Made by a program: the position numbers and the translations under genes. From Bacteroidota bacterium (GTDB lineage: Bacteria > Bacteroidota > Bacteroidia > Chitinophagales > Saprospiraceae): DNA of 64,000 nucleotides. The notes below the pieces were generated by a model. The model was not told the DNA's origin and did no database searches. It saw only the letters and a program-made list of their open reading frames with translations. Position 1 is the stretch's first letter. Each line of letters begins with the position of its first letter. The stretch covers positions 62,001-126,000 of the forward strand of contig WGNL01000007.1 in assembly GCA_016124585.1 (NCBI GenBank). The letters are read 5' to 3'. Below, piece by piece: positions 344-51,667 of this stretch.

Positions 344-1333
344 ATGTCCAACCTTCGCTTACGGCTTTTATCCTACGTCATCATGGTTTACATGCTGATG
401 GCCTTTGCATGGTGGTCTATGCTGCTTTTTACCAAAAACCAAGATGCGTTTAGTGCCAAAAGGGATTTAATGCGGATTGGCATGGTGGCTGAAGGAAGAG
501 TGAAAAATCAATCTGAGTTTGAGCAAATGCCTGAATATCAAACGCTTGCAAAAAAATACAAACGGCAGGAGCGGATGATTTTCGGTGAGGCGACGATGTT
601 TGTGCTGACTTTGCTCGCTGGGCTTTGGTTCATCAACCAAGGCTACCAGAAACAGGAAAGGGCCAACCAGCAACGCCGCAATTTCTTGCTTTCCATTACC
701 CATGAACTGAAATCTCCGATTGCCTCCATTCAACTGGTTTTGGAAACCTTTCTTCGTAGGGAATTACCGAAGGAAAAAGCTGACAAGTTGGCAACCAGCG
801 CCCTGCGGGAAAACGAAAGATTACATGAATTGGTGGAAAATTTATTGCTTTCAGCCAAATTGGAAACTGCCTACCAACCCATTTTTGAAGAACTCAACTT
901 AGCCGATTTATTGGAAGATTTGATGGCAAAATCGGCGGACAGGCATCCAGAAGCGGTTATTGCCCTTGAGAAACCTGACGATTTTCCTTTGGTGAAAATG
1001 GACAAGCAGGGCATCATTTCCATCACCACCAATCTTTTGGAAAACGCCATCAAATATGCTGATGGCAAGCCAGAAATTGAAGTCAGGCTCTTCCAAGAAA
1101 ATGATAAAGTGGTGCTGGAATTTGCCGACAACGGCCCCGGCATCCCTGAAAGAGAAAAAAAACGCATTTTTGAAAAATTTTACCGAATAGGCAGTGAGGA
1201 AACCCGCCAGACCAAAGGAACAGGTTTGGGTTTGTTCATTGTCCAGCAAATTGTGAAAGCACATAGCGGTACAATACAAGTGCTTGATAATCAACCAAAA
1301 GGAACTGTATTTAAAATTGTTATTGGGTATTAA
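344..1333 (+). CDS. Membrane sensor histidine kinase
   Basis: This is a 329-aa two-component sensor. Two hydrophobic segments (about residues 8-30 and 80-98) flank a short, probably periplasmic loop. The kinase core follows directly with no PAS or HAMP domain: H-box SITHELKSPIAS with phospho-acceptor His120, N-box TNLLENAIKYA (Asn230/234), G1 DNGPGIP (262-268) and G2 GTGLGL (292-297). I placed the start at ATG 344 because the upstream in-frame start at 308 lies inside the preceding terminator stem. The cognate response regulator begins 47 bp downstream, so the two are probably cotranscribed. The small sensor loop gives no clue to the stimulus. The function as a kinase is secure. Confidence 0.93.
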   Translation: MSNLRLRLLSYVIMVYMLMAFAWWSMLLFTKNQDAFSAKRDLMRIGMVAEGRVKNQSEFEQMPEYQTLAKKYKRQERMIFGEATMFVLTLLAGLWFINQGYQKQERANQQRRNFLLSITHELKSPIASIQLVLETFLRRELPKEKADKLATSALRENERLHELVENLLLSAKLETAYQPIFEELNLADLLEDLMAKSADRHPEAVIALEKPDDFPLVKMDKQGIISITTNLLENAIKYADGKPEIEVRLFQENDKVVLEFADNGPGIPEREKKRIFEKFYRIGSEETRQTKGTGLGLFIVQQIVKAHSGTIQVLDNQPKGTVFKIVIGY

Positions 1334-1374
1334 TTGCACGAAAATACCCAATTTCTAATGCCTAATACCCAATA
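1321..1374. repeat. Heptad-repeat inverted repeat between kinase and regulator
   Basis: TATTGGGTATTA (1321-1332) is perfectly inverted at 1363-1374. The right side reads as 7-nt units AATACCC/AATTTCT/AATGCCT/AATACCC/AATATCA (1343-1377), immediately before the regulator ATG at 1381. The left arm contains the end of the kinase gene and overlaps its stop codon. Confidence 0.7.
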
Positions 1375-1380
1375 TCAAAA

Positions 1381-2061
1381 ATGAGAATATTACTTGTCGA
1401 AGACGAAGAGAACATCCGGGATGTCGTGAAGCTGAACCTTGAACTGGAAGGCTTTGAGGTCGTGGCTACTGGCAAGGGCTGGGACGGTTTGAAGTTTTTT
1501 CGGGAACAACATTTTGACCTCATCATTTTGGATGTGATGCTGCCAGAAATCAACGGCTTCGAGATTTGCGAGCAAATCAGATTGTCCAACATGGAAGTAC
1601 CCATCATATTCCTAACGGCGAAGGACGGTCCAATTGACCGGATCACTGGCTTGAAGAAGGGCGCTGACGACTATTTGACCAAGCCATTTCACCTCGAAGA
1701 ACTGCTCCTGCGGGTCAACAACCTCATCCGCCGGACCAACAAAGCGCCTGAAAACACGCCTGAAGTCGTTCAATTCGGCAAGAACAAGGTCAATTTCAGA
1801 ACCTTCGAGGCAGAGGGGAACGATGGCCCCTTTGTTTTGACGAAGAAAGAAGCCATGCTACTCAAACTCCTCATCGACCGCAAAAACGAAGTCGTTTCAC
1901 GCAATCAAATCCTACAGTCCGTCTGGGGTTACGACGTCTATCCCTCCACCCGCACGATTGACAATTTTATCCTCTCGTTTCGGAAATATTTTGAAGAAGA
2001 CCAGCGGAACCCCGTTTTTTTCCACTCGGTGAGGGGGGTAGGTTACAAATTCAATGGATAA
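1381..2061 (+). CDS. OmpR/PhoB-family response regulator
   Basis: This 226-aa DNA-binding response regulator is the likely partner of the kinase just upstream. The N-terminal receiver domain has the acidic pair Asp8/Glu9, phospho-acceptor Asp51 in LIILDVMLP, Thr79 and Lys101 in DDYLTKPF, so it should be competent for phosphorylation. The C-terminal winged helix (about 130-226) shows the OmpR pattern LTKKEAMLLKLL, then SRNQILQSVWGYD and the closing VRGVGYKF hairpin. The stop lies within the left arm of a 15-bp inverted repeat, so transcription may end there. Target genes cannot be inferred. Confidence 0.95.
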   Translation: MRILLVEDEENIRDVVKLNLELEGFEVVATGKGWDGLKFFREQHFDLIILDVMLPEINGFEICEQIRLSNMEVPIIFLTAKDGPIDRITGLKKGADDYLTKPFHLEELLLRVNNLIRRTNKAPENTPEVVQFGKNKVNFRTFEAEGNDGPFVLTKKEAMLLKLLIDRKNEVVSRNQILQSVWGYDVYPSTRTIDNFILSFRKYFEEDQRNPVFFHSVRGVGYKFNG

Positions 2062-2113
2062 TTGAAAATTGTCAATGCCCAACATTTTTCAATTATCCAT
2101 TTTCAATTCTCAA
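2054..2113. repeat. Heptad-repeat palindrome between convergent genes
   Basis: A 15-bp arm, ATGGATAATTGAAAA (2054-2068), is perfectly inverted at 2086-2100 across a 17-nt loop. The right side continues in 7-nt units (ATTATCC, ATTTTCA, ATTCTCA). It overlaps the end of the regulator CDS and lies before the convergent paaD-like stop at 2119, so it may act as a bidirectional terminator. Confidence 0.7.
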
Positions 2114-2118
2114 TTAAC

Positions 2119-2604
2119 TCAGTGGCATTTAAAATAATCAAAAGGCTCCAAGCACTCCCGGCATTGGTACAATGATTTGCAAGCGGTGGAGCCAAATTGA
2201 CTTACCAACTTTGTGTCCTTTGAACCGCAGCGAGGACATTCTATCTCGATTTTTTCCCCCAACAAAGAAAGTTTGTCCGCTGAACCGACCGGCGGGGCGA
2301 TGCCGTAAGCTTTGAGCTTTGCTTTTCCTGATTCCGAGAGCCAGTCCGTTGTCCAGGCAGGGCTGAGCTCAGTGGTAATTTTTGCTTGCACAATGCCTGC
2401 TTCCTCCAATGCTGCTCGGATATTCACTTCGATAAAATCCATCGCCGGGCAGCCCGAATAGGTTGGTGTGATGACTACTTCCACTTCTCCCGAAACCTTG
2501 TCCAATCTGACTTTTCGCACGATGCCGAGGTCCATAATAGTCAGCACCGGAATCTCTGGGTCGCTGACCGTTTCTAATATTTCATAAATTTTTTCGTTGG
2601 ACAT
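2119..2604 (-). CDS. paaD: PaaD/PaaJ-like MIP18 family Fe-S assembly protein
   Basis: This 161-aa protein has an N-terminal MIP18 (DUF59) domain with DPEIPVLTIMDLGIV (15-29) and TPTYSGCPAM (47-56). A C-terminal zinc ribbon carries Cys123, 126, 142, 148, 151 and 160. The combination is diagnostic of PaaD (PaaJ), which is thought to help mature the metal centre of the phenylacetyl-CoA epoxidase. The start is ATG 2604; the longer frame to 2628 would overlap the upstream gene. It lies 20 nt behind the unknown gene ending at 2625 and probably shares its transcript. No paaA, paaB, paaC or paaE is in the window, so its true client is uncertain. Confidence 0.85.
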   Translation of the reverse strand: MSNEKIYEILETVSDPEIPVLTIMDLGIVRKVRLDKVSGEVEVVITPTYSGCPAMDFIEVNIRAALEEAGIVQAKITTELSPAWTTDWLSESGKAKLKAYGIAPPVGSADKLSLLGEKIEIECPRCGSKDTKLVSQFGSTACKSLYQCRECLEPFDYFKCH

Positions 2605-2624
2605 TTTCTTCAAAACACTGAAAA

Positions 2625-3941
2625 TCAAGCCTTTGCCAAATCCAATTCACGTACCATCAGCAAAAACGATTCTGCGAAATCTGGCATCGAACTAAAAACC
2701 AGTTTTTTCAGATCCGGTTTCAGGCGGGGAAAATCATTTTCATATTGCTCCACAATCTGGCGAATGGCTGATTTGATACTTTTTTCATCCAAAACACCAT
2801 TTTCAACCAAAGGCTTGAACCCAAGGCTGCGGAAATAGTCAGCCTCCATGATTTGCATCAGCAAGTGGAAAAATGCCTTATCCGGCAGTGGCAAGGCGAA
2901 ATTGAAAAGCGCCCGCCCGATGATGAATCCCGGCACCGCCATTGCGACCCGCTCATGACCATGGTCGGCGTACCAGCGCATATTGGGTAGTTCTTGGTCA
3001 ATTAGGATGACGACATTCTGGTGGTCAATGGGCGGTGTGATGCCGAACGTGGCACTCACTTCGTACATCTCTTGAAAGAACTTTTCACGTGGCCTGTCCA
3101 GCAGTTTTTGGAATTCCTTGCGAAGCACCAAATTCTTCTGCGCCGCATTTTTGCCGTCCTGCTCGAATGCGATCCGGTGGATGCACTCCAACACCTCCAT
3201 CATGTAACCCTCCGGTTTGGTGAGGTAGTCCAATTTGTAGCAGAGGTGCAACAACAAATAAGTGACGGCGACCGGATACTGGTCAGTGTTAAGTTTTCCG
3301 TGGTCAATTTCCGCAAAAACTGCCTTGATTTCCTGTTGGATGAAATCGTATTTCACCGTTTTTTCCCAATCGGGCAATCCCCGCCGCATATTCAGATCAA
3401 TGATTTCGAGCGTCTCAAATTCATCCACCAAAATATCGTCGTGCTTGTCGGCGTGGGTGGCCAGTTCCTTGAGTGCGGCGTAAAGTTTGTAAGGAGAACC
3501 ATCGGAGGTGTAGGTGTCAAAAACGATAGTGATTTCATTCTCGGCAGACAGTGCGAAACGGCTGTATTTCAGCTCATAATTCACTTCCAGCAGCCTCCGC
3601 ATGAAGCTGGACTGAAGGCTTTTGGCCTTCGCAATTTTGGCCTCGGCATACAGTTTCCGGTCGTTTGCGAAGCCGGTAATTTTTTTAGAGCCTTGAAAAA
3701 ACTCGAAATGCAGCTCGCCCCGCTCTTCCCGTACCCGTACATTTTGTTCCTCCACATCCAGCAAGTAATTGAAAAACGAAACATAGGCCGATAGGTAATT
3801 TTCCTTGTCAAAATCCCGAAGCGCCGCATCGAACGCCGCCTCCTGTTCGGCGGAGCGGTTGCTGTCCGTGAACCGCCCAAACCGGATGGCCGGCTGTGGG
3901 GGTGGGGTGGAGGTGCCGAAAAGTCGTCCGAATAAGTTCAT
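2625..3941 (-). CDS. Conserved-looking protein of unknown function
   Basis: This is a soluble 438-aa protein that I do not recognise. There is no signal peptide or membrane segment. Residues about 30-190 alternate strands and helices and end in a stretch (ALKELATHADKHDDIL) that weakly recalls YbjN or type III-chaperone folds; the C-terminal half is helical. I set the start at ATG 3941 (MNLFGRLFG); the longer frame only translates the AT-rich heptad palindrome upstream. It sits between rnhA and the paaD-like gene on the same strand, 20 nt from the latter. The position suggests cotranscription but does not establish a function. Confidence 0.75.
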   Translation of the reverse strand: MNLFGRLFGTSTPPPQPAIRFGRFTDSNRSAEQEAAFDAALRDFDKENYLSAYVSFFNYLLDVEEQNVRVREERGELHFEFFQGSKKITGFANDRKLYAEAKIAKAKSLQSSFMRRLLEVNYELKYSRFALSAENEITIVFDTYTSDGSPYKLYAALKELATHADKHDDILVDEFETLEIIDLNMRRGLPDWEKTVKYDFIQQEIKAVFAEIDHGKLNTDQYPVAVTYLLLHLCYKLDYLTKPEGYMMEVLECIHRIAFEQDGKNAAQKNLVLRKEFQKLLDRPREKFFQEMYEVSATFGITPPIDHQNVVILIDQELPNMRWYADHGHERVAMAVPGFIIGRALFNFALPLPDKAFFHLLMQIMEADYFRSLGFKPLVENGVLDEKSIKSAIRQIVEQYENDFPRLKPDLKKLVFSSMPDFAESFLLMVRELDLAKA

Positions 3942-3945
3942 CCTT

Positions 3946-4027
3946 AGAATTGAAAATTGAAAATTGAAAATGGAGAATTGGGGATACACATCGCATTTTC
4001 AATTCTCCATTTTCAATTTTCAATTCT
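3946..4027. repeat. Long heptad-repeat palindrome (AAAATTG units)
   Basis: The left arm 3953-3980 and right arm 4000-4027 are inverted copies matching at 27 of 28 positions, with a 19-nt loop. The arms are tandem 7-nt units (AAAATTG repeated, then AAAATGG and AGAATTG), and the left side carries one extra unit. The element fills the gap between the rnhA stop and the next minus-strand start. Confidence 0.8.
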
Positions 4028-4029
4028 AT

Positions 4030-4677
4030 TTATTTTCTTCCAAAATCCGCCGGAATCTCGCCCCAATCCTCAGTTTCCCATTTCAGGATGGGGTTCTTGT
4101 AAGTATGGGTCTTGAGCCAATTTTCTGCCCGTGCGATGATTTGGTGGAGGTTTTCTGTTTTGGCATTGCGCACCAATTTGGTCTTGCATTCCTTTTTTTT
4201 CACCCACAGCATGGCGTTGCGGGAGTCGGTGTAAATGGGGGTGTCCTTACCTTCTCGATGAAACATCGCCAAGGCATGGACGATAGCCAAAAACTCGCCG
4301 ATATTGTTGGTGCCAAGCGGGTGTTTTTGGTGAAAAATGGGCGTTTTGGTTTTGGTGTCCACCCCTTGGTATTCCAGCACGCCGGGGTTGCCGGAGCAAG
4401 CAGCGTCCACGCTGATGCTGTCCCAAATGATTGCGGATTGCGGAATGCGGGTTGCGGATTTGAGGCTGCTAGATTGTCCAGGTTTCAATGGGGATTTGAA
4501 TTGGATGTGTTGGGCAAAGTTTCCAGCGTAAGCCGCCTCTGCCTCCTCCTTGGTCCCGAAACTTTTGTACTTGGCAGCGGGATAGCCTTTGATTTGTGCT
4601 TGCGCCTTCAGCCAACTATCGTAAACGCCTGGATTCACGCCTTGCCACACCACATAATATTTTTTTTTATCAGCCAT
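4030..4677 (-). CDS. rnhA: Ribonuclease HI with N-terminal hybrid-binding domain
   Basis: This 215-aa enzyme hydrolyses the RNA strand of RNA-DNA hybrids. Residues 5-50 (YYVVWQGVNPGVYDSW and KSFGTKEEAEAAY) form the caulimovirus-viroplasmin type hybrid-binding domain seen in eukaryotic-like RNases H1. The catalytic domain retains the acidic residues Asp91 (SVDAAC), Glu128 (NNIGEFLAI), Asp151 (YTDSRNA) and Asp211 near the C-terminus. The linker (about 66-84, including KSATRIPQSAI) is encoded by a degenerate CAATCCG heptad repeat, also found in the E1 fusion at 46.45 kb. The hybrid-binding architecture is common in Bacteroidota. The function is secure; the linker is the unusual part. Confidence 0.93.
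   Translation of the reverse strand: MADKKKYYVVWQGVNPGVYDSWLKAQAQIKGYPAAKYKSFGTKEEAEAAYAGNFAQHIQFKSPLKPGQSSSLKSATRIPQSAIIWDSISVDAACSGNPGVLEYQGVDTKTKTPIFHQKHPLGTNNIGEFLAIVHALAMFHREGKDTPIYTDSRNAMLWVKKKECKTKLVRNAKTENLHQIIARAENWLKTHTYKNPILKWETEDWGEIPADFGRK
4430..4461 (-). repeat. CAATCCG heptad repeat inside the rnhA coding linker
   Basis: On the coding strand the run reads as about four degenerate 7-nt units (AAATCCG, CAACCCG, CATTCCG, CAATCCG). It is translated into the interdomain linker and keeps the reading frame open. Confidence 0.7.
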
Positions 4678-4775
4678 TTTTATTCGAAAGCCTCAATGAA
4701 GGCCAGTTTTTGGTGAAATAAACGAAGGCGAAAGGTAGAATTTTTTCTTGCTTCGGAATTTCAATAATTCGTTGC

Positions 4776-4783
4776 TATTTTTG
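4776..4783 (+). promoter_or_regulatory. Bacteroidota -7 box upstream of the EAD-TIR gene
   Basis: TATTTTTG matches the Bacteroidota TAnnTTTG consensus, 30 nt before ATG 4814. The nearest upstream TTG (4748-4750) is further away than the usual spacing, so this is tentative. Confidence 0.4.
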
Positions 4784-4813
4784 GCCGTCCACCTAATAAC
4801 ATAAAAAATCAAT

Positions 4814-5671
4814 ATGACTAAAGCAGAAATTATTGACCTCTTGCTTGAAGGAGATGCCGCCAGTATTGGCCAAGCTATTAAGGAAATGCGAGCCATTTCA
4901 CCCAACGACAATATCATCCTCAACCTTGCCGGGCAATGGAACCGTTTGCAAAAAGACATTGCTGCACGGGTGATTTCAAATGAATACGCCAACCTCACCC
5001 AGAACCAAATTATGAACAGCCTGCTGGAAGTGGCGAAGAAACTGCCTGATAGCAGTTTCTCCAATAGTGGCGGTTCAAGCAGTGGTAGCTCAAGTTCAAA
5101 TTTGAGTGCGTCTAGCAGCAAAGCACTCACGGTATTTCTTTCCTACAACCATAAGGATACAGCAGATGCCACCAAGGTCAAGGATTTTTTGCGGAGCAAA
5201 GGAATCAACGTAACGATTGACTCCGAGGCCATGAAGTCAGGCGAAGACATCGCCGAGTTCATCAACAAGTGCATCCGGGAGTCGGACGTGACACTTTCCC
5301 TAGTTTCTACGAACAGCCTGCTTTCAGCTTGGGTCGGCATTGAAACTATGAATACGTTGGTTGGTGAAAAAATCGCCGGGAAGAAATTCATTTCAGTCGT
5401 GATTGACGGAGCTTTCTATGACCGTGGTTTTGTGGACACAGCTTTTACGGAAGTCGAAAAACGCATGGCTGAACTCAAGGAACTGATGTTGGCAAGGCTT
5501 GACAAAGACCGGGGCATCGAGGATTTGCAAAGCGAGCGGACCCGCAACAAGAATCTGTTGAACGACCTACCTGAAATAGTTGCCAATTTACGGGCAAGGC
5601 TGAATGTGGATATTTCGGGCGATAATTTTGAGAAAGGGATGGAAAAAGTTGCGAGGGATATATTGGAATGA
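4814..5671 (+). CDS. EAD11-like effector-associated domain fused to a TIR domain
   Basis: This 285-aa protein has three parts. Residues 1-77 are helical and resemble effector-associated domain 11 (EIIDLLLEGD, then NEYANLTQNQIMNSLLEVA). Residues 78-102 are a Ser/Gly-rich linker. From about 103 there is a TIR domain with VFLSYNHKD (108-115), a BB-loop-like DSEAMKSGEDI (136-146) and SAWVGIE with candidate catalytic Glu177, the position used by NAD-cleaving TIRs. EADs are known as death-like adaptors that recruit effectors to NTP-dependent conflict or signalling systems. NAD hydrolysis and a defence role are inferences. No second EAD protein or NTPase is nearby. It converges on the membrane-protein gene with one base between the stops. 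Confidence 0.85.
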   Translation: MTKAEIIDLLLEGDAASIGQAIKEMRAISPNDNIILNLAGQWNRLQKDIAARVISNEYANLTQNQIMNSLLEVAKKLPDSSFSNSGGSSSGSSSSNLSASSSKALTVFLSYNHKDTADATKVKDFLRSKGINVTIDSEAMKSGEDIAEFINKCIRESDVTLSLVSTNSLLSAWVGIETMNTLVGEKIAGKKFISVVIDGAFYDRGFVDTAFTEVEKRMAELKELMLARLDKDRGIEDLQSERTRNKNLLNDLPEIVANLRARLNVDISGDNFEKGMEKVARDILE

Positions 5672-5672
5672 T

Positions 5673-6215
5673 TCAGCGTGTCATTTTTTTTGCTTGGGTT
5701 AATTTGTTCAGGTATTGCTGCCATTGCGCCGCTTCGACGCAAAAGATGTTTTTGGTTTCACAATATTTGTTTAATACTTTAACCAAGCCATCCGCTGCCT
5801 TGAAACTATTTGCATCAATTTTCAAGACATTTTCAAAATCCAATTTAGCATGCTTTAAATCTCCAGCATATAAATTATTAAAGCCCGATTTAATCAATAT
5901 GTCATTGCTCGGATTTGCTTGATTGCGTTGATTACGCTGAATAACTGCTTTTCTATTTGTCTCATACTGAGTGAATTTTAAATAAGCTCTCCATATAAAA
6001 AATGCACCCAATAGTACAAGGCATAATACCACTATCCCAACAAGCTTATTAATCCAGTTATGCTCATTGGCTTCTTTCCATGGGTTCCCTATCCGGTGCT
6101 CAATATCATATTCAAGTGCTTTTTTCTTGCGCAAATCATTGGCACTTTGGAAAGCTTGGAACGGCTTGCGCTCTCTGTGCTCTTTTGGCGTGACGCTTGA
6201 GTATCCGAAGGGCAT
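5673..6215 (-). CDS. Single-pass membrane protein with TPR-like C-terminus
   Basis: This 180-aa protein has an N-terminal cytoplasmic-type segment of about 75 charged residues and one membrane helix (LVGIVVLCLVLLGAFFIWRAYL, about 77-98). A C-terminal helical part (SGFNNLYAGDLKHAKLDFENVLKIDANSFKAADGL) looks like one TPR pair. No enzymatic motif is visible. The gene is 29 nt behind the lipoprotein gene on the same strand, so they may be cotranscribed, and its stop is one base from the stop of the EAD-TIR gene. A link to the TIR protein is possible but unsupported beyond proximity. Confidence 0.7.
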   Translation of the reverse strand: MPFGYSSVTPKEHRERKPFQAFQSANDLRKKKALEYDIEHRIGNPWKEANEHNWINKLVGIVVLCLVLLGAFFIWRAYLKFTQYETNRKAVIQRNQRNQANPSNDILIKSGFNNLYAGDLKHAKLDFENVLKIDANSFKAADGLVKVLNKYCETKNIFCVEAAQWQQYLNKLTQAKKMTR

Positions 6216-6244
6216 ATCAATAATTTCTAAGAAAATTTAGAATT

Positions 6245-6949: not shown

Positions 6950-7057
6950 TTGCGTGTAAATTAAATAACATAGCGAATTCAATATTCCGTTAAATTGGAC
7001 TGGGGAGGGGGCATTGAACCCTCTGAACCCTCTATCTTGAATCAAGACAGCAAATAT

Positions 7058-7153: not shown

Positions 7154-7266
7154 AATCGAAGTCAGATTTAATTTTTCCCAATTAACAAGTAGTGAGGAAA
7201 ACGCCATCGCCCCGATTGCCCTTGCATAAGCCTGAACAAATGTTGTCTCTACGTTCAAGCGATAAA

Positions 7267-11489: not shown

Positions 11490-11537
11490 AAAACTGGTAA
11501 GAGCGTTGGAGTTTGTTGTGCCGCTCTTACCAGTTTT
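11490..11537 (+). terminator. Rho-independent terminator after the sorbosone dehydrogenase gene
   Basis: AAAACTGGTAAGAGCG (11490-11505) is perfectly inverted at 11522-11537, followed by CTTTTTATT. Confidence 0.9.
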
Positions 11538-31567: not shown

Positions 31568-32491
31568 ATGAATCATTCCCGTAGAAAATTTTTTCAGTTT
31601 GCTGGCGCAGCAGCTGCCAGTGCACTGATTTTGCCCAATTGGGCCTGTAACTCTGAAGGGTCGAAAACCGATGGAGAAGCTGAAAGTACCACCACGCCAG
31701 AAGCTCCTGTAGCCACACCAAGTCTTACAGAGTATGGCATTCAGCTTTGGAGTGTTCGGGACGATATGGCCAAAGACCCTAAAGCTGTCTTGAAACAACT
31801 GGCTACGGCAGGCTACAAATTCGTAGAAAGCTTTGAAGGCGAAAAAGGTATGTACTGGGGTATGAAAAACACTGAATTCAAATCTTATCTCGATGAAATT
31901 GGCTTGACCATGTTTTCCAGCCATTGCGATACGAATAAGGACTTGGAGAAAAAAGCTGCTGAAGCTGCTGCCATTGGTGTCAACTACTTGATAACGCCAC
32001 ATATTGGCGCACAAAAATCGATGGAAGATTGGAAGCCCATCGTGGAGGGATTCAACAAGAATGGCGAAATCTGCAAAAAAGCGGGCATCCGGTATGCTTA
32101 CCATAACCACGCCTATTCTTTCGAACCTGTGGATGGCCAATTGCCACAGGATTATATGCTAAACAATACCGACCCAGGCATCGTGGATTTTGAAATGGAT
32201 ATTTACTGGGTGGTGACAGCTGGGAAAGACCCCATCGAGTATTTGCAAAAATACCCAGATAGGTTCCGTCTCTGCCATGTGAAAGACCGTATCAAGGATT
32301 TGCCGCTTACTGAGCGTGAGGCTTCCTGCGATCTTGGCACAGGAAGCATCGATTTTGCAAAAATCTTGGGTGTGGCTCGGGAGAAGGGCATGAAATATTA
32401 CATCGTCGAGCAAGAACGCTGGGACAATTCCACGCCTATGAAATCGGCGGAGGCAGACGCAGCTTATATGAGCAAATTGGTTTTTGCATAA
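31568..32491 (+). CDS. Tat-exported sugar phosphate isomerase/epimerase-like TIM barrel
   Basis: This 307-aa protein starts at ATG 31568. The N-terminus (MNHSRRKFFQFAGAAAASAL) has a twin-arginine motif and a following Cys in NWACNSE, so it is likely a Tat-dependent lipoprotein. The catalytic-type domain is an AP-endonuclease-2/xylose-isomerase-like TIM barrel (EYGIQLWSVRDDMAKDP, SSHCD, YHNHAYSFEP, DFEMDIYWVVTAGKDP, CHVKDR, YIVEQERW), with His and Glu residues at the expected metal positions. Substrate is unknown. Confidence 0.85.
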   Translation: MNHSRRKFFQFAGAAAASALILPNWACNSEGSKTDGEAESTTTPEAPVATPSLTEYGIQLWSVRDDMAKDPKAVLKQLATAGYKFVESFEGEKGMYWGMKNTEFKSYLDEIGLTMFSSHCDTNKDLEKKAAEAAAIGVNYLITPHIGAQKSMEDWKPIVEGFNKNGEICKKAGIRYAYHNHAYSFEPVDGQLPQDYMLNNTDPGIVDFEMDIYWVVTAGKDPIEYLQKYPDRFRLCHVKDRIKDLPLTEREASCDLGTGSIDFAKILGVAREKGMKYYIVEQERWDNSTPMKSAEADAAYMSKLVFA

Positions 32492-32496
32492 TGTCT

Positions 32497-32559
32497 GGTT
32501 TTCGGTTTTTGGTTTCGGGCTCCTTCTTGGCGGACACCCGAAACCAAAAAACCGAAATC
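32497..32559. repeat. Heptad-repeat palindrome (GGTTTTT units)
   Basis: The left arm (32497-32519: GGTTTTC, GGTTTTT, GGTTTCG, GG) is inverted at 32537-32559 with a few differences and a 17-nt loop. It fills the gap between the TIM-barrel stop and the GTG of the exonuclease gene. Confidence 0.7.
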
Positions 32560-32575
32560 TGATACTAACCTTGCT

Positions 32576-38804: not shown

Positions 38805-38813
38805 TCACATCAG

Positions 38814-42132: not shown

Positions 42133-42190
42133 CTTTGTGAAGTTTGCAAAGATTATTGATATTAGAAAAGACAAATTCAATCAAATCAAC

Positions 42191-44395: not shown

Positions 44396-44398
44396 GGT

Positions 44399-45216: not shown

Positions 45217-45235
45217 ATGTTTTGGAATTGCTAGT

Positions 45236-45277
45236 GCAATCAATTGGTTGCAAATATATGCGCAACCAATTGATTGC
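45236..45277. promoter_or_regulatory. Candidate ArsR operator (perfect 16-bp inverted repeat)
   Basis: GCAATCAATTGGTTGC (45236-45251) and GCAACCAATTGATTGC (45262-45277) are perfect inverted copies with a 10-bp spacer, 20 bp upstream of the ArsR ATG. This fits dimer binding that blocks its own promoter. Confidence 0.75.
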
Positions 45278-45395
45278 GCAAAACTTTTTAGCAGATTTTT
45301 TTCTAAGAAGTGACTTTATCGTCACCAGCTTTTCACCTTAGTTTGGATATTGAAAAATGTAGCTAAAAAGGCCATTCGCCGCATTAAGATTAGCC

Positions 45396-45403
45396 TATCT
45401 TTG
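45396..45403 (+). promoter_or_regulatory. Bacteroidota -7 box upstream of the E1 gene
   Basis: TATCTTTG matches TAnnTTTG, 29 nt before ATG 45432. No clear -33 TTG element is seen at the usual distance. Confidence 0.5.
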
Positions 45404-45431
45404 CGCCCAATTTTTTTAAATACGTCCTGCA

Positions 45432-47444
45432 ATGCCCACAGCAACAGCCCAACCTATCCAATTTAAAAAAGGAAAACTGAGCAAGGAAACCCTGCTCAAA
45501 CTCTACCGACGCCTGCTTAAACCCCGAATGATTGAAGAAAAAATGCTCATTCTACTTCGGCAGGGGCAGGTCTCCAAATGGTTCAGCGGCATCGGCCAGG
45601 AGGCCATCGCCGTAGGTGTCACAAGTGCGTTGTTATCGGATGAATTGGTCTTCACACTGCACCGTAACCTTGGCGTTTTCACGGTGCGGGATGTGCCGTT
45701 GGCTACCTTGTTTTCACAGTGGCAAGGCAAGAAAAATGGCTTCTCGAAAGGCCGGGAGCGCAGTTTCCATTTTGGTACTTTGGACTATGGCATCGTTGGA
45801 ATGATCAGCCACCTTGGCCCACAATTGGCGCTAGCTGATGGCGTGGCCTTGGCACATAAACTGAAAGGGGAAGGACGGGTAGCATTGGCTTTCAGCGGCG
45901 AAGGCGGCACTAGTGAGGGCGACTTCCACGAGGCGCTGAACGTTGCTGCCGTCTGGGATTTGCCCGTGATTTTTATTGTAGAAAACAATGGCTACGGGCT
46001 TTCGACGACCACCAAGGAACAGTACCGTTGTGAAAACATCGCCGACAAAGGCGTGGGCTACGGCATAAAATCGGTCATCGTGGATGGCAACAATATCCTT
46101 GAAGTTTACCACATGATTGACAAACTGGCGGTGGAAATGCGCAAGAACCCGCACCCCGTGCTGGTCGAGTGCAAGACCTTCCGGATGCGGGGCCATGAGG
46201 AGGCAAGTGGGGTCAAATATGTTCCGAAGGAACTACTAGAAACCTGGGCGTTGAAAGACCCGCTCGAAAACTACGAGCGTTTCCTGGTGGAAGAAGGCAT
46301 TCTGGACGATGAAACCGTAAAGCAATTCCGCAAGGAAATCAAGGATGAGATTGACACCGCATGGAAAACCACTGTCTCTGAGCCTGAAATTGAACCAGAT
46401 ACGGAGGAAGAACTGGCGGATATCTACGCTCCAGTATCAGTTTCCAACGCCCCCAATCTGCAATCCGCAATCCGCAATCCGCAATCGGAGAAGCGGTTCA
46501 TAGACGCCATTTCCGATGGCCTTCGGCTGGCGATGGAAAAGCACGAAAACCTTGTGTTGATGGGGCAGGACATTGCCGATTACGGCGGTGTTTTCAAAAT
46601 CACGCAGGGGTTCATGGAAGCCTTTGGCAAGGAGCGGGTGCGCAACACGCCGATTTGCGAAAGTGCCATCGTGGGCACGGCGCTGGGCTTGAGTCTAAAG
46701 GGTTTCAAGAGCATGGTAGAGATGCAGTTCGCCGATTTCGTGACCTGCGCCTTCAACCAAATCGTGAACAACCTCGCTAAAATTCACTACCGCTGGGGCG
46801 TAAACGCTGATGTAGTGGTGCGGATGCCGAGCGGCGGTGGGGTAGGAGCGGGGCCGTTTCACTCCCAGAGCAACGAGGCGTGGTTCGTGCACACGCCTGG
46901 TTTGAAAGTGGTTTGCCCTTCCACGGTTTACGATGCAAAGGGGCTGCTGCTGGCGGCTTTTGAGGATCCAAATCCCGTCATGTTTTTTGAGCACAAAGCT
47001 TTGTACCGGGCCATTTCGGAAGAAATTCCAGATGGCTACTACACTGTCGAAATCGGTAAAGCGAGGGTGGCACGGGAAGGTTCGGCAGTAAGCGTCATCA
47101 CCTATGGCATGGGCGTTCACTGGGCGCTGAAAGTTTGCGAAGAAGAGGGTATTGATGCCGACATCATTGACTTGCGAACACTATTGCCCATTGATTATCA
47201 GGCAATTGTGAACAGTGTTGAGAAAACGAACCGGGCCATCATCCTTCACGAGGACACCCTCACAGGGGGCGTTGGTGGCGAATTGGCGGCTTGGATTTCA
47301 GAGCATTTGTTCGAGCAACTCGATGCGCCAGTAATGCGGGCTGCGGGCTTGGATACACCCGTGCCGTTTGCTATCCCATTAGAACAAAATTACATGCCAG
47401 TGGAGCGGTTTAGGAAGCAATTGCGTAAACTTGCCACATATTAA
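45432..47444 (+). CDS. 2-oxoacid dehydrogenase E1, alpha-beta fusion
   Basis: This 670-aa thiamine-diphosphate enzyme joins E1 alpha and beta in one chain. The alpha part (about 15-320) has RGQVSKWFSGIGQEA and the TPP motif GEGGTSEGDFHEALNVAAVW with ENN (184-186). The beta part (about 354-670) has LVLMGQDIADYGGVFKITQG, NTPICESAIVGTALGLSLKG, PSGGGVGAGPFHSQSNEAWF and HEDTLTGGVGGELAA. It most resembles branched-chain 2-oxoacid (2-oxoisovalerate) dehydrogenases, which form acyl-CoA with E2 and E3, neither of which is in the window. The linker (about 335-353) is encoded by CAATCCG heptads. Confidence 0.9.
   Translation: MPTATAQPIQFKKGKLSKETLLKLYRRLLKPRMIEEKMLILLRQGQVSKWFSGIGQEAIAVGVTSALLSDELVFTLHRNLGVFTVRDVPLATLFSQWQGKKNGFSKGRERSFHFGTLDYGIVGMISHLGPQLALADGVALAHKLKGEGRVALAFSGEGGTSEGDFHEALNVAAVWDLPVIFIVENNGYGLSTTTKEQYRCENIADKGVGYGIKSVIVDGNNILEVYHMIDKLAVEMRKNPHPVLVECKTFRMRGHEEASGVKYVPKELLETWALKDPLENYERFLVEEGILDDETVKQFRKEIKDEIDTAWKTTVSEPEIEPDTEEELADIYAPVSVSNAPNLQSAIRNPQSEKRFIDAISDGLRLAMEKHENLVLMGQDIADYGGVFKITQGFMEAFGKERVRNTPICESAIVGTALGLSLKGFKSMVEMQFADFVTCAFNQIVNNLAKIHYRWGVNADVVVRMPSGGGVGAGPFHSQSNEAWFVHTPGLKVVCPSTVYDAKGLLLAAFEDPNPVMFFEHKALYRAISEEIPDGYYTVEIGKARVAREGSAVSVITYGMGVHWALKVCEEEGIDADIIDLRTLLPIDYQAIVNSVEKTNRAIILHEDTLTGGVGGELAAWISEHLFEQLDAPVMRAAGLDTPVPFAIPLEQNYMPVERFRKQLRKLATY
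46454..46488 (+). repeat. CAATCCG heptad repeat inside the E1 fusion linker
   Basis: Five tandem 7-nt units fill exactly 35 bp (CAATCTG, then three CAATCCG, then CAATCGG). They translate to QSAIRNPQS between the alpha and beta parts, as in the rnhA linker. Confidence 0.85.
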
Positions 47445-47485
47445 ATTTTGCATCAAAACAAACACGAATCAAACACCAACCGAGA

Positions 47486-47875
47486 ATGAACATCCTGTTG
47501 TGCACCACCGAAGAACTCATGCTCACCACTTTTGAATTTCGCTTCCGCAAAAACGGCTGGAAACTGACAGTGGCGGAAAGCGCCAAAACTGCCCTTGAGA
47601 AAACCAAGAACCTGCTTCCCGATATGGTTGTGGTGGACTTGAGTTTGCCAAATTTTGAAGCCTTGGATATTGTGCAGTTCATCAAAAAAGAGCCGAACCA
47701 TGATGAAACACCTATCCTCATTTACGGAACAGTGGAAAATGAGCAACTAATATTGGAATCGCTTCGGCTTGGTGCCAATGATTTCATCATCGCCCCCATC
47801 AAGCCGGATGAACTGACGATTCGGATTCGAAGGCAATTGATGAAGAAAAAAGGTGCTGAAAAATCCCTTGTTTGA
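47486..47875 (+). CDS. Atypical stand-alone receiver protein
   Basis: This 129-aa protein consists of a receiver domain only. The phospho-acceptor position Asp51 is kept (VVVDLSLPN), but compared with canonical receivers the acidic pair is Thr8/Glu9 rather than two acidic residues, and the conserved Lys of the D-Y-L-x-K-P motif is Ala (DFIIAPIKPDEL). It may be phosphorylation-independent or poorly phosphorylated. It lies 41 nt after the E1 gene and may share its transcript. Confidence 0.8.
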   Translation: MNILLCTTEELMLTTFEFRFRKNGWKLTVAESAKTALEKTKNLLPDMVVVDLSLPNFEALDIVQFIKKEPNHDETPILIYGTVENEQLILESLRLGANDFIIAPIKPDELTIRIRRQLMKKKGAEKSLV

Positions 47876-47894
47876 AAAGCCAACAGTTGATTTT

Positions 47895-47917
47895 GTTCCT
47901 AACATGAATTAAGGAAC
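47895..47917 (+). terminator. Weak terminator-like hairpin
   Basis: GTTCCT and AGGAAC flank a short loop and are followed by TGTTTTTG, just after the receiver gene. Confidence 0.5.
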
Positions 47918-47982
47918 TGTTTTTGATGGAAGCCGTCAGTTTCAATTAAGGTAGCTTCTAACTGTCTAAATGCCAACTCAAC

Positions 47983-48843
47983 ATGAAAGGAATCATACTC
48001 GCCGGAGGACTCGGCACTCGATTGTACCCGTTGACGCTCGTCGTGAGCAAGCAGATGATGCCCGTTTACGACAAGCCGATGATTTATTATCCGCTCAGTA
48101 CACTGATGCAGGCGGGAATCAAGGATATTCTCATCATATCCACGCCTTACGACTTGCCCAATTTTGAAAAACTGTTGGGCAACGGCCATGACATTGGATG
48201 CAATTTTGAGTATGTGCCACAGTACGAACCCAACGGCTTGGCACAGGCTTTTGTTTTGGGGGAGAAATTCATCAACGGAGAGCCAGCGGCCCTGATTTTG
48301 GGAGACAATATCTTCTATGGTGCGGGCATGGCCGAACTGATGCAGGCCAGTGCCAATCCAGACGGTGGTGTCATTTTCGCCTACCAAGTGGCTGACCCAG
48401 AGCGCTACGGTGTGGTAGAATTTGACGACAACTTCAAAGCGATTTCCATTGAGGAAAAACCGAAGCAGCCGAAGTCAAATTACGCAGTTCCTGGCTTGTA
48501 TTTCTATGATAATCAGATAGTTGAGATTGCGAAAAACCTGAAGCCAAGCCCTCGTGGCGAATACGAAATCACGGACGTTAACCGAATTTATCTCGAAATG
48601 GGCAAGCTCAGCGTCGGCGTTTTGGGGCGTGGTGTGGCATGGTTGGATACAGGTACGCACGATTCGCTGCTCCAAGCAGGGCAGTTCATCCAAGTCATCG
48701 AAGAGCGGCAGGGCTTGAAAATTGGCTGTATTGAGGAAGTAGCTTGGGAAATGGGTTTCATTGATGATGCGCAACTTGAAAAGCTCGGACACAAGTTTAT
48801 CAAAAGTGGTTATGGTGAATATTTATTGCGGCTATTGAAGTAA
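47983..48843 (+). CDS. rmlA: Glucose-1-phosphate thymidylyltransferase
   Basis: This 286-aa enzyme makes dTDP-glucose, the first step to dTDP-L-rhamnose and related sugars for cell-surface polysaccharides. Landmarks are the nucleotide-binding [11 protein letters not shown] (8-18), [67 protein letters not shown] and [19 protein letters not shown]. Length and all motifs match RmlA/RfbA. The usual rmlB, rmlC and rmlD genes are not adjacent. Confidence 0.95.
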
Positions 48844-48856
48844 GTGCGGCGTGATT

Positions 48857-48914
48857 TTTGTTTTCTGTTGAAGTTTAGTCTCACGGCATTCTTTTATACT
48901 AAACAGAAAACAAA
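48857..48914. repeat. Inverted repeat with heptad-like arms after rmlA
   Basis: The left arm TTTGTTTTCTG plus TTTAGT (48857-48879, with a 6-nt insertion) is inverted at 48898-48914, with an 18-nt loop. GTTTTCT/GTTTAGT heptad units are visible in the right arm. It ends three bases before the next ATG (48918). Confidence 0.6.
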
Positions 48915-48917
48915 TCA

Positions 48918-49766
48918 ATGAACAAAGAAAAACACAGACCTCACTGCCGTGTGAGGTCGTTAGCATTGCTAATTATCACTTCATTTTTATTCACGACCTG
49001 CCAAAACGATTTAGAAAATTTACCCACTGAGCAGGCTTTTACCAAAGAAAAATTAGAGCGACTTGGGGATATGCTGCGCAATGAATTGCTGAAGCAGTAT
49101 GAAGTTTTACCACAATTGTCTCCCTACGACACTTCCATTTATTGGTACTTACAAACGATGTACGAACAGGCGACTAGTTCTATGCACCTCGATCGCCAAT
49201 CTCCTGTCTACAACAAGTGGGACCAAGACCGTAAGTGGAAGGTTTATATCCTTAAAAGTGATGACCAACAGCTTGCCTTTACATTGCCTGGTGGCGATTT
49301 TTTCATATCTACAGGCATGTTAAAGTGCCTTCAAAAGGATTACGAATTGTACGCTCTACTTTCGTTTGAGGCTGCATTGATGAATGAGGGCTATTTGCTG
49401 GCGCAATGGACTATGGAGTACAATTCATTGACCATCAATAACTTAATTGAAGGAAATGACCAGCCAAACCCACTCACAGCAGAGGTTTTGGCTGAAAAAA
49501 TGACCTCATTTGTCTTTGAAACAAAAACCATAGAGGCAGTAGACAAGGCTGCCATTGAAAATACTTGTTCAACTTCAATACTCGATCCAGTTGGACTCGT
49601 GCCCTTTCTTGGCAATGCAAATTTTGAAAATTCAAAATGGTTGCAAACTCGGCCTTCTTATGATGGAAGGGTTGAAATGCTTCCAGAAATGGCCGATCAT
49701 TTTTGTCAAAATGACCAACTAGGTGTCGGCAATTATCAACGTTTTGTACTCAATGTTTTGGAATAA
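48918..49766 (+). CDS. M48-like lipoprotein lacking the zinc motif (pseudopeptidase)
   Basis: This 282-aa lipoprotein has a signal ending in the lipobox FLFTTCQN (Cys28). Residues 108-135 (WKVYILKSDDQQLAFTLPGGDFFISTGML) match the M48 peptidase pattern seen before the catalytic helix (v.ll.......a...PGG.i.v.tG.l). The expected HExxH is replaced by FEAAL (150-154), so zinc binding should be lost. It probably has a structural or chaperone-like role. I am fairly confident of the resemblance, less so of the family. Confidence 0.65.
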   Translation: MNKEKHRPHCRVRSLALLIITSFLFTTCQNDLENLPTEQAFTKEKLERLGDMLRNELLKQYEVLPQLSPYDTSIYWYLQTMYEQATSSMHLDRQSPVYNKWDQDRKWKVYILKSDDQQLAFTLPGGDFFISTGMLKCLQKDYELYALLSFEAALMNEGYLLAQWTMEYNSLTINNLIEGNDQPNPLTAEVLAEKMTSFVFETKTIEAVDKAAIENTCSTSILDPVGLVPFLGNANFENSKWLQTRPSYDGRVEMLPEMADHFCQNDQLGVGNYQRFVLNVLE

Positions 49767-49780
49767 GTTTGGTGAAATGC

Positions 49781-50554
49781 TCAGTTTAGGCTCAAAGCCC
49801 CTAACCCGAACAGCGCAAAATCATATTTCACAGGGTCTTCAGGGTCAAATTCCCGAAGCCTTCCTGTTAATTCAAGCACTGCTAGCCAGTCAGTCTGCGG
49901 GCGCTCAAGCAGCCCAAATCTCCGAGCGTATCGTTCCACATGTACATCCAGCGGCACGAGCAATTGTGAAGGCTTGATGTTTTTCCAAATACCAAAATCC
50001 ACGCCCCGGTCGTCGCTCCGCACCATCCAGCGGAGGAACATGTTGAGCCGCTTGCATGTGGATTTTGTGAGCGGGGATGGGATATGTTTTCGAGTGCGCT
50101 CCGGCGAATCGGGTAGGGAGAAAAACAGCTCTCGGAACCCGGCCAAGCCATTGCTTGTATCAGCATCACCTTGGCCCATTTTTTTCAAAAAGGCCTCTTC
50201 GAGCGAATGGTTGTTTTGGTAAAACCATTGAAAAAACGCCAAAAAATAAAGCGTATCCGTTGCTTGAAAAGTCCGGTGAACGAAACTTAGGAACGTCTTT
50301 CGGTCTGTTTCTTGGTGGTTCAAAATGAAATCATGTGGCGCTCCGTCCATCAGTCCGAAAAGTTCATTGGCCTTGTTGATGATGGTTTTTCGCTGCCCCC
50401 AGGCGAGCATTGCCGTCCAAAAAGCGCTGATTTCGATATCCTGTTTTTTTGAAAAACGGTGTGGCACGGAAATCGGATCGGTTTCCAGAAAATTTGGGCG
50501 ATTGTATTTGTCCACACAGTCGTCCAAGAATTTTTTCAGTTCCTTGTTGCTCAT
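49781..50554 (-). CDS. TIGR02757 family protein (DUF2400)
   Basis: This 257-aa soluble protein starts at ATG 50554 and matches TIGR02757: YNRPNFLETDPISVPHRFSKKQDIEISAFWTAMLAWGQRKTIINKANELFGLMDGAPHDF, then LNMFLRWMVRSDDRGVDFGIWKNI and LDVHVERYARRFGLL. The family is widespread in Bacteroidota and of unknown function. Convergent with the M48-like gene. Confidence 0.9.
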   Translation of the reverse strand: MSNKELKKFLDDCVDKYNRPNFLETDPISVPHRFSKKQDIEISAFWTAMLAWGQRKTIINKANELFGLMDGAPHDFILNHQETDRKTFLSFVHRTFQATDTLYFLAFFQWFYQNNHSLEEAFLKKMGQGDADTSNGLAGFRELFFSLPDSPERTRKHIPSPLTKSTCKRLNMFLRWMVRSDDRGVDFGIWKNIKPSQLLVPLDVHVERYARRFGLLERPQTDWLAVLELTGRLREFDPEDPVKYDFALFGLGALSLN

Positions 50555-50684
50555 TTTGAAAATCAAATAGTCAGAAGGGCGTCGAAAGAAAAAAATGAGA
50601 AATACAGTTTTTCAAAAAAAATAAAGACCTTTGCTCCGTCTGGAAGGCATCTTAAACAAACTGCCGTTGTTCACGAGCACTAAA

Positions 50685-50774
50685 ATGACCGCAACACTCA
50701 CATACACCCTCGTTTTAGCCGCCATTTATTTTGGTATAAAAGCCATCGAATACGTGGAGCATCGTGAACAGTAA
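50685..50774 (+). CDS. Possible 29-aa membrane peptide
   Basis: A short frame encodes MTATLTYTLVLAAIYFGIKA followed by a charged EYVEHREQ tail, that is, one membrane helix with a polar end. It lies between the TIGR02757 gene and the glycosyltransferase gene (opposite strand). An AAAGACCTTTG stretch upstream (about 50623-50633) only weakly resembles the TAnnTTTG box. Too short for a family assignment. Confidence 0.4.
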   Translation: MTATLTYTLVLAAIYFGIKAIEYVEHREQ

Positions 50775-50779
50775 TTGAT

Positions 50780-51535
50780 TTATTTTTTCTCAGTAGATTG
50801 GTACATTTTGAATTTTGCCAACCCGATGCGCTGGAGAAAATGGCAGAAAGACACCCGCATCACCCCCATCCCGTACTTCATACTCCGTCTGAAATTAATG
50901 GAAGAAGCCTCCTCGAAATACTTCGTGGGGCAGGTCACTTCGGCGATATCGAAGCCTGCGAAAACGATTTGCGACAACATTTCATTGTCAAAAACAAAAT
51001 CGTCCGAGTTCGCCTCGAAATTGATGCCAAGCAGTACCTCCCGGCTAAAAGCCCGGTAGCCCGTGTGGTATTCCGAAAGTTTGTAACTGATGAGCAGGTT
51101 TTGCGAAAGCGTCAAAAACCTATTGAAAATGTACTTGTAAAGCGGCATTCCACCCCGCAGCGCTCCTTTTCCGAGGATGCGGCTGCCTAAAACGACCGGG
51201 TAAAGCCCCTCGCCGATGATGTTCACGAAGGACGGAATCAGCAACGGCGTGTACTGGTAGTCAGGGTGCAACATGATGACTATGTCGCCGCCGAGTTCGA
51301 GCGCCTTACGATAAAGCGACTTTTGGTTGCCGCCGTAGCCCTTGTTTTGCTGGTGTTCGATCACGTGGTGGACGCCCAGTTTTTTTGCCAAGGCCACGGT
51401 ATCATCCTTGCTGGCATCATCACAGAGGATGACTTCGTCAACGAGCGGGAACGGGATTTCGGCGTAGGTTTTTTCGAGCGTCAGCGCTGCGTTGTAAGCT
51501 GGCAACACGACAATGACCTTTTTTCCTTTGTACAT
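50780..51535 (-). CDS. Family 2 glycosyltransferase (DPM1-like)
   Basis: This 251-aa GT2 enzyme begins KVIVVLPAYNAALTLEKTY and has the nucleotide-binding CDDASKDDTVALAKKLG, then GGDIVIMLHPDYQYTP with the metal-binding Asp region, and YKLSEYHTGYRAFSREVL. The compact size and absence of a transmembrane C-terminus suggest a cytoplasmic enzyme like dolichol-phosphate mannosyltransferase, transferring a sugar to a lipid carrier. Donor and acceptor are unknown. Confidence 0.92.
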   Translation of the reverse strand: MYKGKKVIVVLPAYNAALTLEKTYAEIPFPLVDEVILCDDASKDDTVALAKKLGVHHVIEHQQNKGYGGNQKSLYRKALELGGDIVIMLHPDYQYTPLLIPSFVNIIGEGLYPVVLGSRILGKGALRGGMPLYKYIFNRFLTLSQNLLISYKLSEYHTGYRAFSREVLLGINFEANSDDFVFDNEMLSQIVFAGFDIAEVTCPTKYFEEASSINFRRSMKYGMGVMRVSFCHFLQRIGLAKFKMYQSTEKK

Positions 51536-51568
51536 TTGCGGTGGTTTCGTTTGCTAAAAAATGCTCGC

Positions 51569-51576
51569 AAAGATAG
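51569..51576 (-). promoter_or_regulatory. Minus-strand -7 box for the glycosyltransferase gene
   Basis: TATCTTTG (minus strand) matches TAnnTTTG, 34 nt before the ATG at 51535. A TTTTG on the same strand (51593-51597) is 16 bp upstream and lies inside the heptad palindrome. Confidence 0.5.
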
Positions 51577-51667
51577 ACTTTAGACTTTAGACAAAAGACA
51601 TTAGAGAAGGCAACTCCAGCTTGATAAGTCTTGGTTCTTTAGTCTAAAGTCTGTAGTCTAAAGTCTT
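51577..51667. repeat. Heptad-repeat imperfect palindrome (AGACTTT units)
   Basis: The left arm reads as 7-nt units AGACTTT, AGACTTT, AGACAAA, AGACATT (from 51577), and the right arm (51636-51667) is its approximate inverse, with AGACTTTAGACT exactly shared. The loop is about 25 nt. It lies between divergent genes. Confidence 0.7.

Follow-up and report, generated by a model that had tools for sequence, protein, structure and literature searches.

What keeps an intergenic repeat recognisable when its letters change? The question is raised by a 64,000-nucleotide stretch of contig WGNL01000007.1 (positions 62,001 to 126,000; the window), part of a 6.63-Mb draft genome of 45 contigs from a Saprospiraceae bacterium, in which six unrelated gene boundaries had been predicted to carry runs of 7-nt units (heptads) inverted across a loop. 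Comparison with congeners indicates that the position and architecture of such heptad hairpins tend to persist, whereas the identity of the unit is lost. The reading favoured here, held tentatively and a little short of even confidence, is that these elements resemble the short tandemly repeated repetitive sequences (STRRs) of cyanobacteria, occupy inherited slots and are rewritten as DNA through slippage, through copying from arm to arm and through the spread of units between gaps.

The inverted architecture claimed in the original prediction is firm, as the best hairpin exceeds 300 of 300 dinucleotide shuffles at all six sites. The 7-nt units are clear at four of them (starting at 2054, 3946, 32497 and 51577), where the lag-7 score also exceeds 300 of 300 shuffles. 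The site at 1321 is probably built of 7-nt units (297/300), and the site at 48857 (289/300) is treated as a plain hairpin. In the five periodic gaps a stem-loop with arms of degenerate 7-nt repeats fills much of the space between the genes. Lag-7 segments scoring at least 12 number five in the window and none in each of 10 order-3 Markov sequences. Folded as DNA, the sites lie 3.1 to 10.0 standard deviations below 200 shuffles; the highest value belongs to 3945-4028, and 2 of the 200 shuffles fold as well as the site at 51577.

Position and unit identity at orthologous gaps

The comparison covered 164 orthologous, non-divergent gap pairs with reciprocal-best flanking genes, drawn from congener genomes sampled in part. 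The threshold for calling a gap periodic was 8.5 in the orthologous-gap and loop-sharing tests and 9 in the family, polarity, mismatch, skew and window-site tests, and the family and orthologous-gap surveys took in gaps of 25-300 nt. Both gaps are periodic in 49 pairs, one gap in 16 + 32 and neither in 67 (odds ratio 6.4). Where both gaps measure 55-200 nt (n = 90), both are periodic in 33 pairs, one in 7 + 16 and neither in 34; counted for periodic hairpins, these pairs have one in both gaps in 33 cases, in one gap in 7 + 12 and in neither in 38 (odds ratio 14.9).

The unit does not follow the slot. When both sides have period 7, a unit family is common to only 5 of 34 orthologous pairs, with 3.9 expected at random, whereas the pairs of ordinary hairpins all lie above the 95th percentile of random similarity (8/8). 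That arrays persist although their letters are replaced suggests that the periodicity is regenerated and not merely inherited. The first three window sites, each set against five congeners, met a periodic hairpin in 8 of the 15 comparisons and an array that is periodic by later thresholds only in 2; the window's own unit was found in one of these comparisons (G012, second site). Some slots are short and element-free in some species.

The gap L009:5152-5229 holds two different facing families, GGAAATT and CATTTACC. Its orthologue in G008 carries the corresponding families and is among the few cases in which units are kept.

Abundance and unit families

The genome-wide sample comprises 964 kb (88% coding) and includes the window. 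Genes were called with a home-made codon-usage caller, which places some gap ends wrongly, as at gap 85 of contig C24. Intergenic runs scoring at least 10 number 50 at lag 7, 34 at lag 14, 29 at lag 21, 16 at lag 8 and 12 at lag 10, with 0, 0, 4, 3, 2 and 2 at lags 5, 6, 9, 11, 12 and 13; coding sequence holds 13 lag-7 runs. The original prediction had been that period-7 runs would stand out from shuffled sequence and recur in relatives, and they do lie far above shuffled sequence and are present and non-random in congeners. Hairpins scoring at least 12 occur in 125 of 420 gaps of 25-260 nt, against 3 after shuffling. The best period of the 85 hairpins scoring at least 14 is 7 in 30, 8 in 10, 10 in 2 and another value in 7; the remaining 36 have none, and many of these look like ordinary terminators. 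Taken as a set, hairpin arms are periodic at 7 (z +17.7), 14 (+10.9) and 8 (+5.7). Periodic arrays are present in 76 of 443 gaps of 25-300 nt and 44 of these 76 hold a hairpin scoring at least 11, so that about one intergenic gap in ten (44/443) has a periodic hairpin; by extrapolation the whole genome would contain some 300. The 115 periodic hairpins collected from six genomes are AT-rich, with a median loop of 18 nt and a median arm of 25 nt, and lie a median of 11 nt from either gene. Outside the genus (240 kb from four genomes) periodic arrays were found in 4/30, 0/30, 2/15 and 3/14 gaps and periodic hairpins numbered 2, 0, 1 and 1.

The statement that the unit differs by locus proved half right. 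The 130 lag-7 runs of six genomes fall into 27-28 families, compared with 51-59 if the unit letters are shuffled or drawn at random, and the families, which include AAAATTG, AGGGATG, AATGATG, ATTGGTG, AGTTGGC and AATTGGG, recur at unlinked loci. They are also clustered. Of 30 pairs of neighbouring arrays at most 6 kb apart, 10 have a family in common, where permuting the labels within species gives 3.3 (p = 0.0005); this count leaves out a gene cluster at C33:123-151 kb of the same genome (L344, L345), with which it becomes 18 of 39 against 5.7. The C33 cluster consists of eleven consecutive paralogous genes of 794-820 codons, which to judge from their N-termini probably encode FtsX/MacB-like permeases and whose DNA is alignable over 77-520 nt only. 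Closely similar AATTGA stem-loops occupy 8 of the 10 gaps between these divergent paralogues; in the corresponding cluster of G001, 8-nt units are found in three gaps and AAAATGG in one.

Families that recur at unlinked loci, in counts that are unequal between species, would be expected of mobile palindromic mini-elements, similar to REPINs or miniature inverted-repeat transposable elements, that are inserted whole, mobilised in trans and turned over by successive insertions. The short, element-free gaps of some relatives would fit such insertions, as would the G-first polarity that is common where no start codon constrains it (17/17 convergent groups, discussed below). This explanation is distinctly unlikely. 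Loops are mostly unshared, with 12 pairs having a common 10-mer among 137 elements against 1-3 in shuffles, and although that small excess could be counted in favour of insertion, the general lack of sharing argues against recent transposition of whole elements. Heptamer number and order vary among elements, and insertion explains neither the periods of 7, 8 and 10 nor the refilling of the same slots across species. No mobilising enzyme was found in the draft genome among the two families sought: RVT_1 (PF00078) has no match at E <= 0.001, with matches in 3 of 14 control genomes, and Y1_Tnp (PF01797) has only three weak matches (E 1e-4 to 6e-4), of which two overlap, reach or pass the cut-off and contain internal stops, and one is below the cut-off in an open frame. 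The original view that this is not a dispersed transposable element is partly right, to judge by loops and enzymes; it does not accommodate families that recur at unlinked loci, vary in number by species and cluster in neighbouring gaps.

The unequal counts are best seen in exact-pattern searches across 14 genomes of the genus (matches, several per array). For AATTGAN, GGRATGA and AATGRTR respectively, the genome of the window has 55, 5 and 52, G001 has 8, 5 and 32, G003 has 0, 555 and 0, G009 has 59, 0 and 98, G011 has 1, 57 and 178, and G012 has 23, 58 and 2. AATTGAN is present in 10 of the 14 and in 12 of 66 other genomes, one of which (G035) has 27 matches. Such counts raise the idea that each species has a writer acting in trans, or a reader of its own that selects for the sites it recognises, by which gene-end hairpins are made to carry one or a few 7-nt words, leaving a heptamer signature of the genome that is at times overwritten at fixed slots. 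The idea draws on one congener with 555 GGRATGA matches and none of the two other families, and on others in which this is reversed, and is quite improbable.

A further explanation would be slippage acting on each locus by itself, in which unconstrained gaps drift into heptad arrays and then into palindromes by template switching, with neither exchange between loci nor function. According to the excerpts available of two papers, heptanucleotides were the top long-repeat class in most repeat-rich genomes surveyed earlier and slippage is the proposed cause (PMC4679880, PMC4692102). Arrays of the (AATTGAA)4 type are found in many phyla, mostly without an inverted partner (15 of 119 loci have one), and AATTGAA-type units in Trichormus, Anabaena and Hormoscilla records amount to likeness, not descent. 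Autonomous slippage is nevertheless very improbable as the whole account, as families are shared between loci and between neighbours, an effect that already strains it, their counts differ between species and polarity is uniform in convergent gaps. A generic preference for the AATTGAA unit was considered and rejected: viral contigs contain 60 stretches of it against 34, 30, 34 and 23 of four composition-matched units, and an excess of only about twofold is too small to account for the bias towards certain families.

Polarity of the arms and the question of DNA or RNA

The 5' arm is the richer in G in 101 of the 115 periodic hairpins and the richer in C in 12, with 2 equal. Grouped by orthology, the G-rich 5' arm is found in 17/17 convergent, 54/65 co-directional (9 opposite, 2 mixed) and 5/8 divergent groups. 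Element-free gaps are G-poor before start codons (skew -0.26, co-directional) and unskewed after stops, and convergent gaps with periodic hairpins have a skew of +0.39 on the left and -0.43 on the right. We read this polarity as that of a library which is filtered before start codons and then copied everywhere. General G-richness after stops was set aside as the cause: it is not seen in element-free co-directional gaps (skew -0.02), and of the hairpin-less arrays in the left part of co-directional gaps 9 are richer in G and 8 in C, with left and right scored along the + strand. In G003 a long AGTAGGG array faces CATCCCT arrays in a convergent gap (L495:9341-9569); the two families are non-complementary and have the same G-first polarity.

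Orientation of the flanking genes bears on the main rival, namely that selection acts on the stem-loops as hairpins in RNA, between cistrons or at 3' ends, for termination, processing, stability or coupling, with the heptad period a by-product of slippage; since only pairing would matter, the letters could turn over. In favour of a role in RNA, a hairpin of any kind scoring at least 12 is present in 41 of 75 gaps between convergent genes, in 80 of 283 between co-directional and in 4 of 62 between divergent ones, and periodic hairpins of this genome in 7/76, 35/297 and 2/70; their closeness to genes and the tendency of their position to persist are also in keeping with it. In the excerpts available, transcript stability in Anabaena is linked to a stem-loop located where nifH1 is processed (PMC4284476), and STRR hairpins are proposed to stabilise transcripts or couple translation (PMC2670836). 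The distribution is less telling for the repeats themselves, as periodic arrays are equally frequent in divergent (13/70), convergent (12/76) and co-directional (51/297) gaps, and congeners have periodic hairpins in 3/19, 4/36, 2/8 and 0/19 divergent gaps.

Were RNA pairing under selection, G.U should outnumber A.C among mismatches on the transcribed strand. This is the case for ordinary hairpins in co-directional gaps (49 to 27, p = 0.015), whereas periodic hairpins show no such excess (59 to 58). A U-tract at the 3' foot (at least 6 T in 8) is present on 19% of 124 strands of periodic hairpins, compared with 36% of 240 for ordinary ones. The terminator or RNA-stability roles proposed originally thus gain no support from the mismatches, and neither species-specific families nor sharing between neighbours is predicted by selection on RNA, which is on balance somewhat unlikely. 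A stop-codon comb, in which TGA-bearing units with a period prime to 3 would place stops in all frames, was rejected as too weak an effect: stops occur on average in 1.60 frames of the 5' arm (109 periodic hairpins), whereas dinucleotide shuffles average 1.25-1.29 and mononucleotide shuffles 1.47-1.49.

Arm complementarity can be examined in the 48 of 115 hairpins that have period 7, arms of at least 20 and at least two different units. In 42 of these the order of the heptamers gives complementarity above the permuted-order mean (p = 4e-7), and such complementarity beyond the sharing of a family would follow if one arm served as template for its partner. Two further candidates were discarded: loss of palindrome surveillance, since SbcD is above the cut-off in 11 of 14 genus genomes including that of the window, and retro-copying or a retron product, for want of an RVT_1 match in the draft genome.

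From these observations we infer three copying steps and a filter, all acting on DNA. For STRR-like hairpins rewritten at inherited slots, the slot between two genes would be inherited and its letters rewritten. Slippage in steps of 7, to which the period points, and sometimes of 8 or 10, would create the units of an arm and keep them alike. Template switching at the quasi-palindrome, which copies across the hairpin and to which the matching arms point, would maintain complementarity, and copying between gaps, mostly nearby, as families shared by neighbours suggest, would spread unit families and give each species its own favoured units. Genes may tolerate the elements in intercistronic and convergent gaps, and before start codons only the G-poor 3' arm, which would filter the library towards a G-rich 5' arm.

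A number of points weigh against this reading. No rewriting event has been observed, and as congeners are mostly 66-84% identical in aligned DNA, replacement is not separable from fast drift. Some sequence memory exists, because among 35 pairs of periodic hairpins 23% are more similar than the 95th percentile of random similarity. The gap pairs are not independent: for period alone, the species pairs formed by this genome with G001, G008 and G012 give p = 0.024, 0.005 and 0.1 at 25-300 nt, and in the 55-200 nt subset p = 0.039, 0.074 and 0.24. A further mechanism would be needed for copying between unlinked gaps. Loops are mostly unshared, and such loop sharing as exists is slightly above shuffles. 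A function of the G-rich arm could lie behind the uniform polarity in convergent gaps, periodic arrays regardless of hairpin are not avoided in divergent gaps, and the mismatch test comprises 117 informative mismatches only. In other phyla 104 of 119 (AATTGAA)4-type loci have no inverted partner. The species pattern counts include overlapping matches within one array, so that the chi-square of the family counts (1425, 26 degrees of freedom) is inflated. Read backwards as a control, the patterns give no match in the genus except AATTGAN in G009 (4) and GGRATGA in G003 (502) and G004 (71), with further backward AATTGAN matches in G063 (7) and G066 (1), both of the same order; backward GGRATGA is no neutral control in G003, where the stretch read holds a real AGTAGGG array.

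Known systems and the sites in the window

In the excerpts available of PMC2670836, STRRs are described from the hupS-hupL gap and other gaps of Nostoc and Anabaena as short tandem repeats usually of 7-bp units, intergenic, hairpin-forming and also present inside operons. The likeness drawn in the original prediction holds for unit length, intergenic place (50 intergenic and 13 coding lag-7 runs), hairpin formation (44 of 76 gaps with periodic arrays, and the folds of the window sites) and variability among close relatives (5 of 34 pairs share a family). Unlike STRRs, the present elements have a Bacteroidota host, their inverted architecture is quantified, unit identity is lost at kept positions, unit libraries differ per species, period-8 and period-10 versions occur and polarity is G-first. 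Short repeats in Nostoc hyp-operon gaps, such as ATTGCGAATTGCGAATTG, look alike in the part of PMC2408588 available.

Heptads between genes are also described, to judge from excerpts of PMC4692102, in Xanthomonas (GGGAATC) and Nostoc (GGGGA(C/T)T). The Xanthomonas heptads form 70 (Xcc) and 75 (Xac) inverted pairs, few of them between divergent genes, and lie mostly between the same genes in two species while length and sequence vary (PMC4692102). They share with the present hairpins a G-rich 5' arm of the inverted pair (101/115 here). There, a genome has one quadruplex-forming unit type (PMC4692102); the present genomes have many, most of them AT-rich, and at a given place one species may carry a different unit from another. 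The commonest units (AAAATTG, AATGATG, ATTGGTG and AGTTGGC) lack the G-run of such quadruplex-forming heptads, being without GGG, and AGGGATG and AATTGGG hold one GGG each. TAACTGA repeats of Beggiatoaceae, seen also in some cyanobacteria and five Bacteroidetes, are likewise intergenic heptamer arrays, but according to the excerpts they consist of a single unit in direct orientation and in the main genome lie mostly just upstream of start codons (PMC4679880). Among the open-licence papers listed, none describes inverted heptad arrays in Saprospirales or other Bacteroidota.

Rho-independent terminators are hairpins at 3' gene ends. The heptad hairpins differ from them in long arms and loops (medians 25 and 18 nt), AT-richness, fewer U-tracts, which only a minority of strands possess, and a sequence that is little retained; short-looped ordinary hairpins, which do keep their sequence, are present in these genomes as well. 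We know of no REP or REPIN element with an internal 7-nt period. Those elements, which are associated with RAYT transposases, are likewise short dispersed palindromes between genes (PMC3116915, in the part available), but in this genome no intact RAYT gene was found and letters are not conserved between elements (27-28 families) or between orthologous places.

Two groups of dispersed sequences stand beside the heptad hairpins. Stem-loops with a 10-nt unit (GGTTGATAAC-like) at C41:909-962, C5:185.0 kb and C24:168.1 kb of the same genome (joined contig pieces) differ from most heptad elements in having a common loop motif around CCTACTAAT or its complement, and are possibly a true dispersed element. 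A separate dispersed palindrome with TGTCATTGCCG..AGGCAA occurs at L009:16291-16374, at C5:196.7 kb of this genome and at G008:C78:32.3 kb, where four matches lie about 57 nt apart; to our eye it is REPIN-like.

Intergenic heptamer repeats have long been puzzling in cyanobacteria, Xanthomonas and Beggiatoaceae, and their function is recorded as unknown in the available parts of PMC2670836 and PMC4692102. Their origin is now testable, as the genus offers many unit families, sister genomes and the contrast between words lost at kept places and ordinary hairpins that keep theirs. This contrast splits the problem into the source of period 7, the complementarity of the arms, the spread of words between gaps and the role of the stem for the genes. 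Such elements may also confuse terminator prediction and repeat masking.

In the window, the first stem-loop (1317..1378; arms 1317-1332 and 1363-1378, unit about GGTATTA/TAATACC) lies in a co-directional gap on the + strand between a histidine kinase gene, whose end at 1333 places the stop codon within the left arm, and the gene of a response regulator, which starts at 1381. The second (2053..2115; arms 2053-2072 and 2082-2101, with extra right-hand heptads to 2115) combines AATTGAA with AATGGAT in the convergent gap between the response regulator gene (+) and a PaaD-like gene (-). The strongest element (3945..4028) has 26 perfect pairs between arms 3955-3980 and 4000-4025, combines AATTGAA with AATGGAG and has one heptamer more in the left arm than in the right; both flanking genes are on the - strand, one at 2625-3941 (no Pfam match) and one at 4030-4677 (RNase H-like). 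The fourth (32489..32567; best arms 32500-32519 and 32537-32557, units GGTTTTC, GGTTTTT and GGTTTCG) is placed between a TIM-barrel gene and an exonuclease RNase_T gene, both +. The plain hairpin (48857..48914; arms 48857-48869 and 48902-48914), without a convincing 7-nt period, separates a nucleotidyl transferase gene from an M48-like gene (weak match), again both +. The last inverted arrays (51574..51666; arms 51574-51598 and 51636-51660, unit TAGACTT) lie in a divergent gap, with a glycosyl transferase gene (-) on one side and a frame of 1063 aa (+) on the other. The loops of these sites measure 30, 9, 19, 17, 32 and 37 nt, so that the 17-19-nt loops expected at four sites are found at two.

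The divergent setting of the last site, the period-8 and period-10 versions, the G-rich 5' arm and the coding lag-7 runs go beyond what had been predicted. Two such coding runs lie in the window, GATTGCG x4.6 (4429..4460) within the reading frame 4030-4677 (-) and CAATCCG x4.7 (46454..46486) within 45432-47444 (+), and their presence in long frames means that the repeat process reaches coding sequence too. No known RNA family scores at its gathering threshold in the window. A terminator scan of positions 1-5000 gave 5 hits, none of them on the first three sites, for which it is uninformative as it admits only loops of 3-8 nt. Two inverted repeats in the window are not periodic: a perfect 16-bp repeat with a 16-nt loop at 11490-11537, and a loopless 21-nt palindrome, 90% complementary, at 45236-45277 in a gap called divergent.

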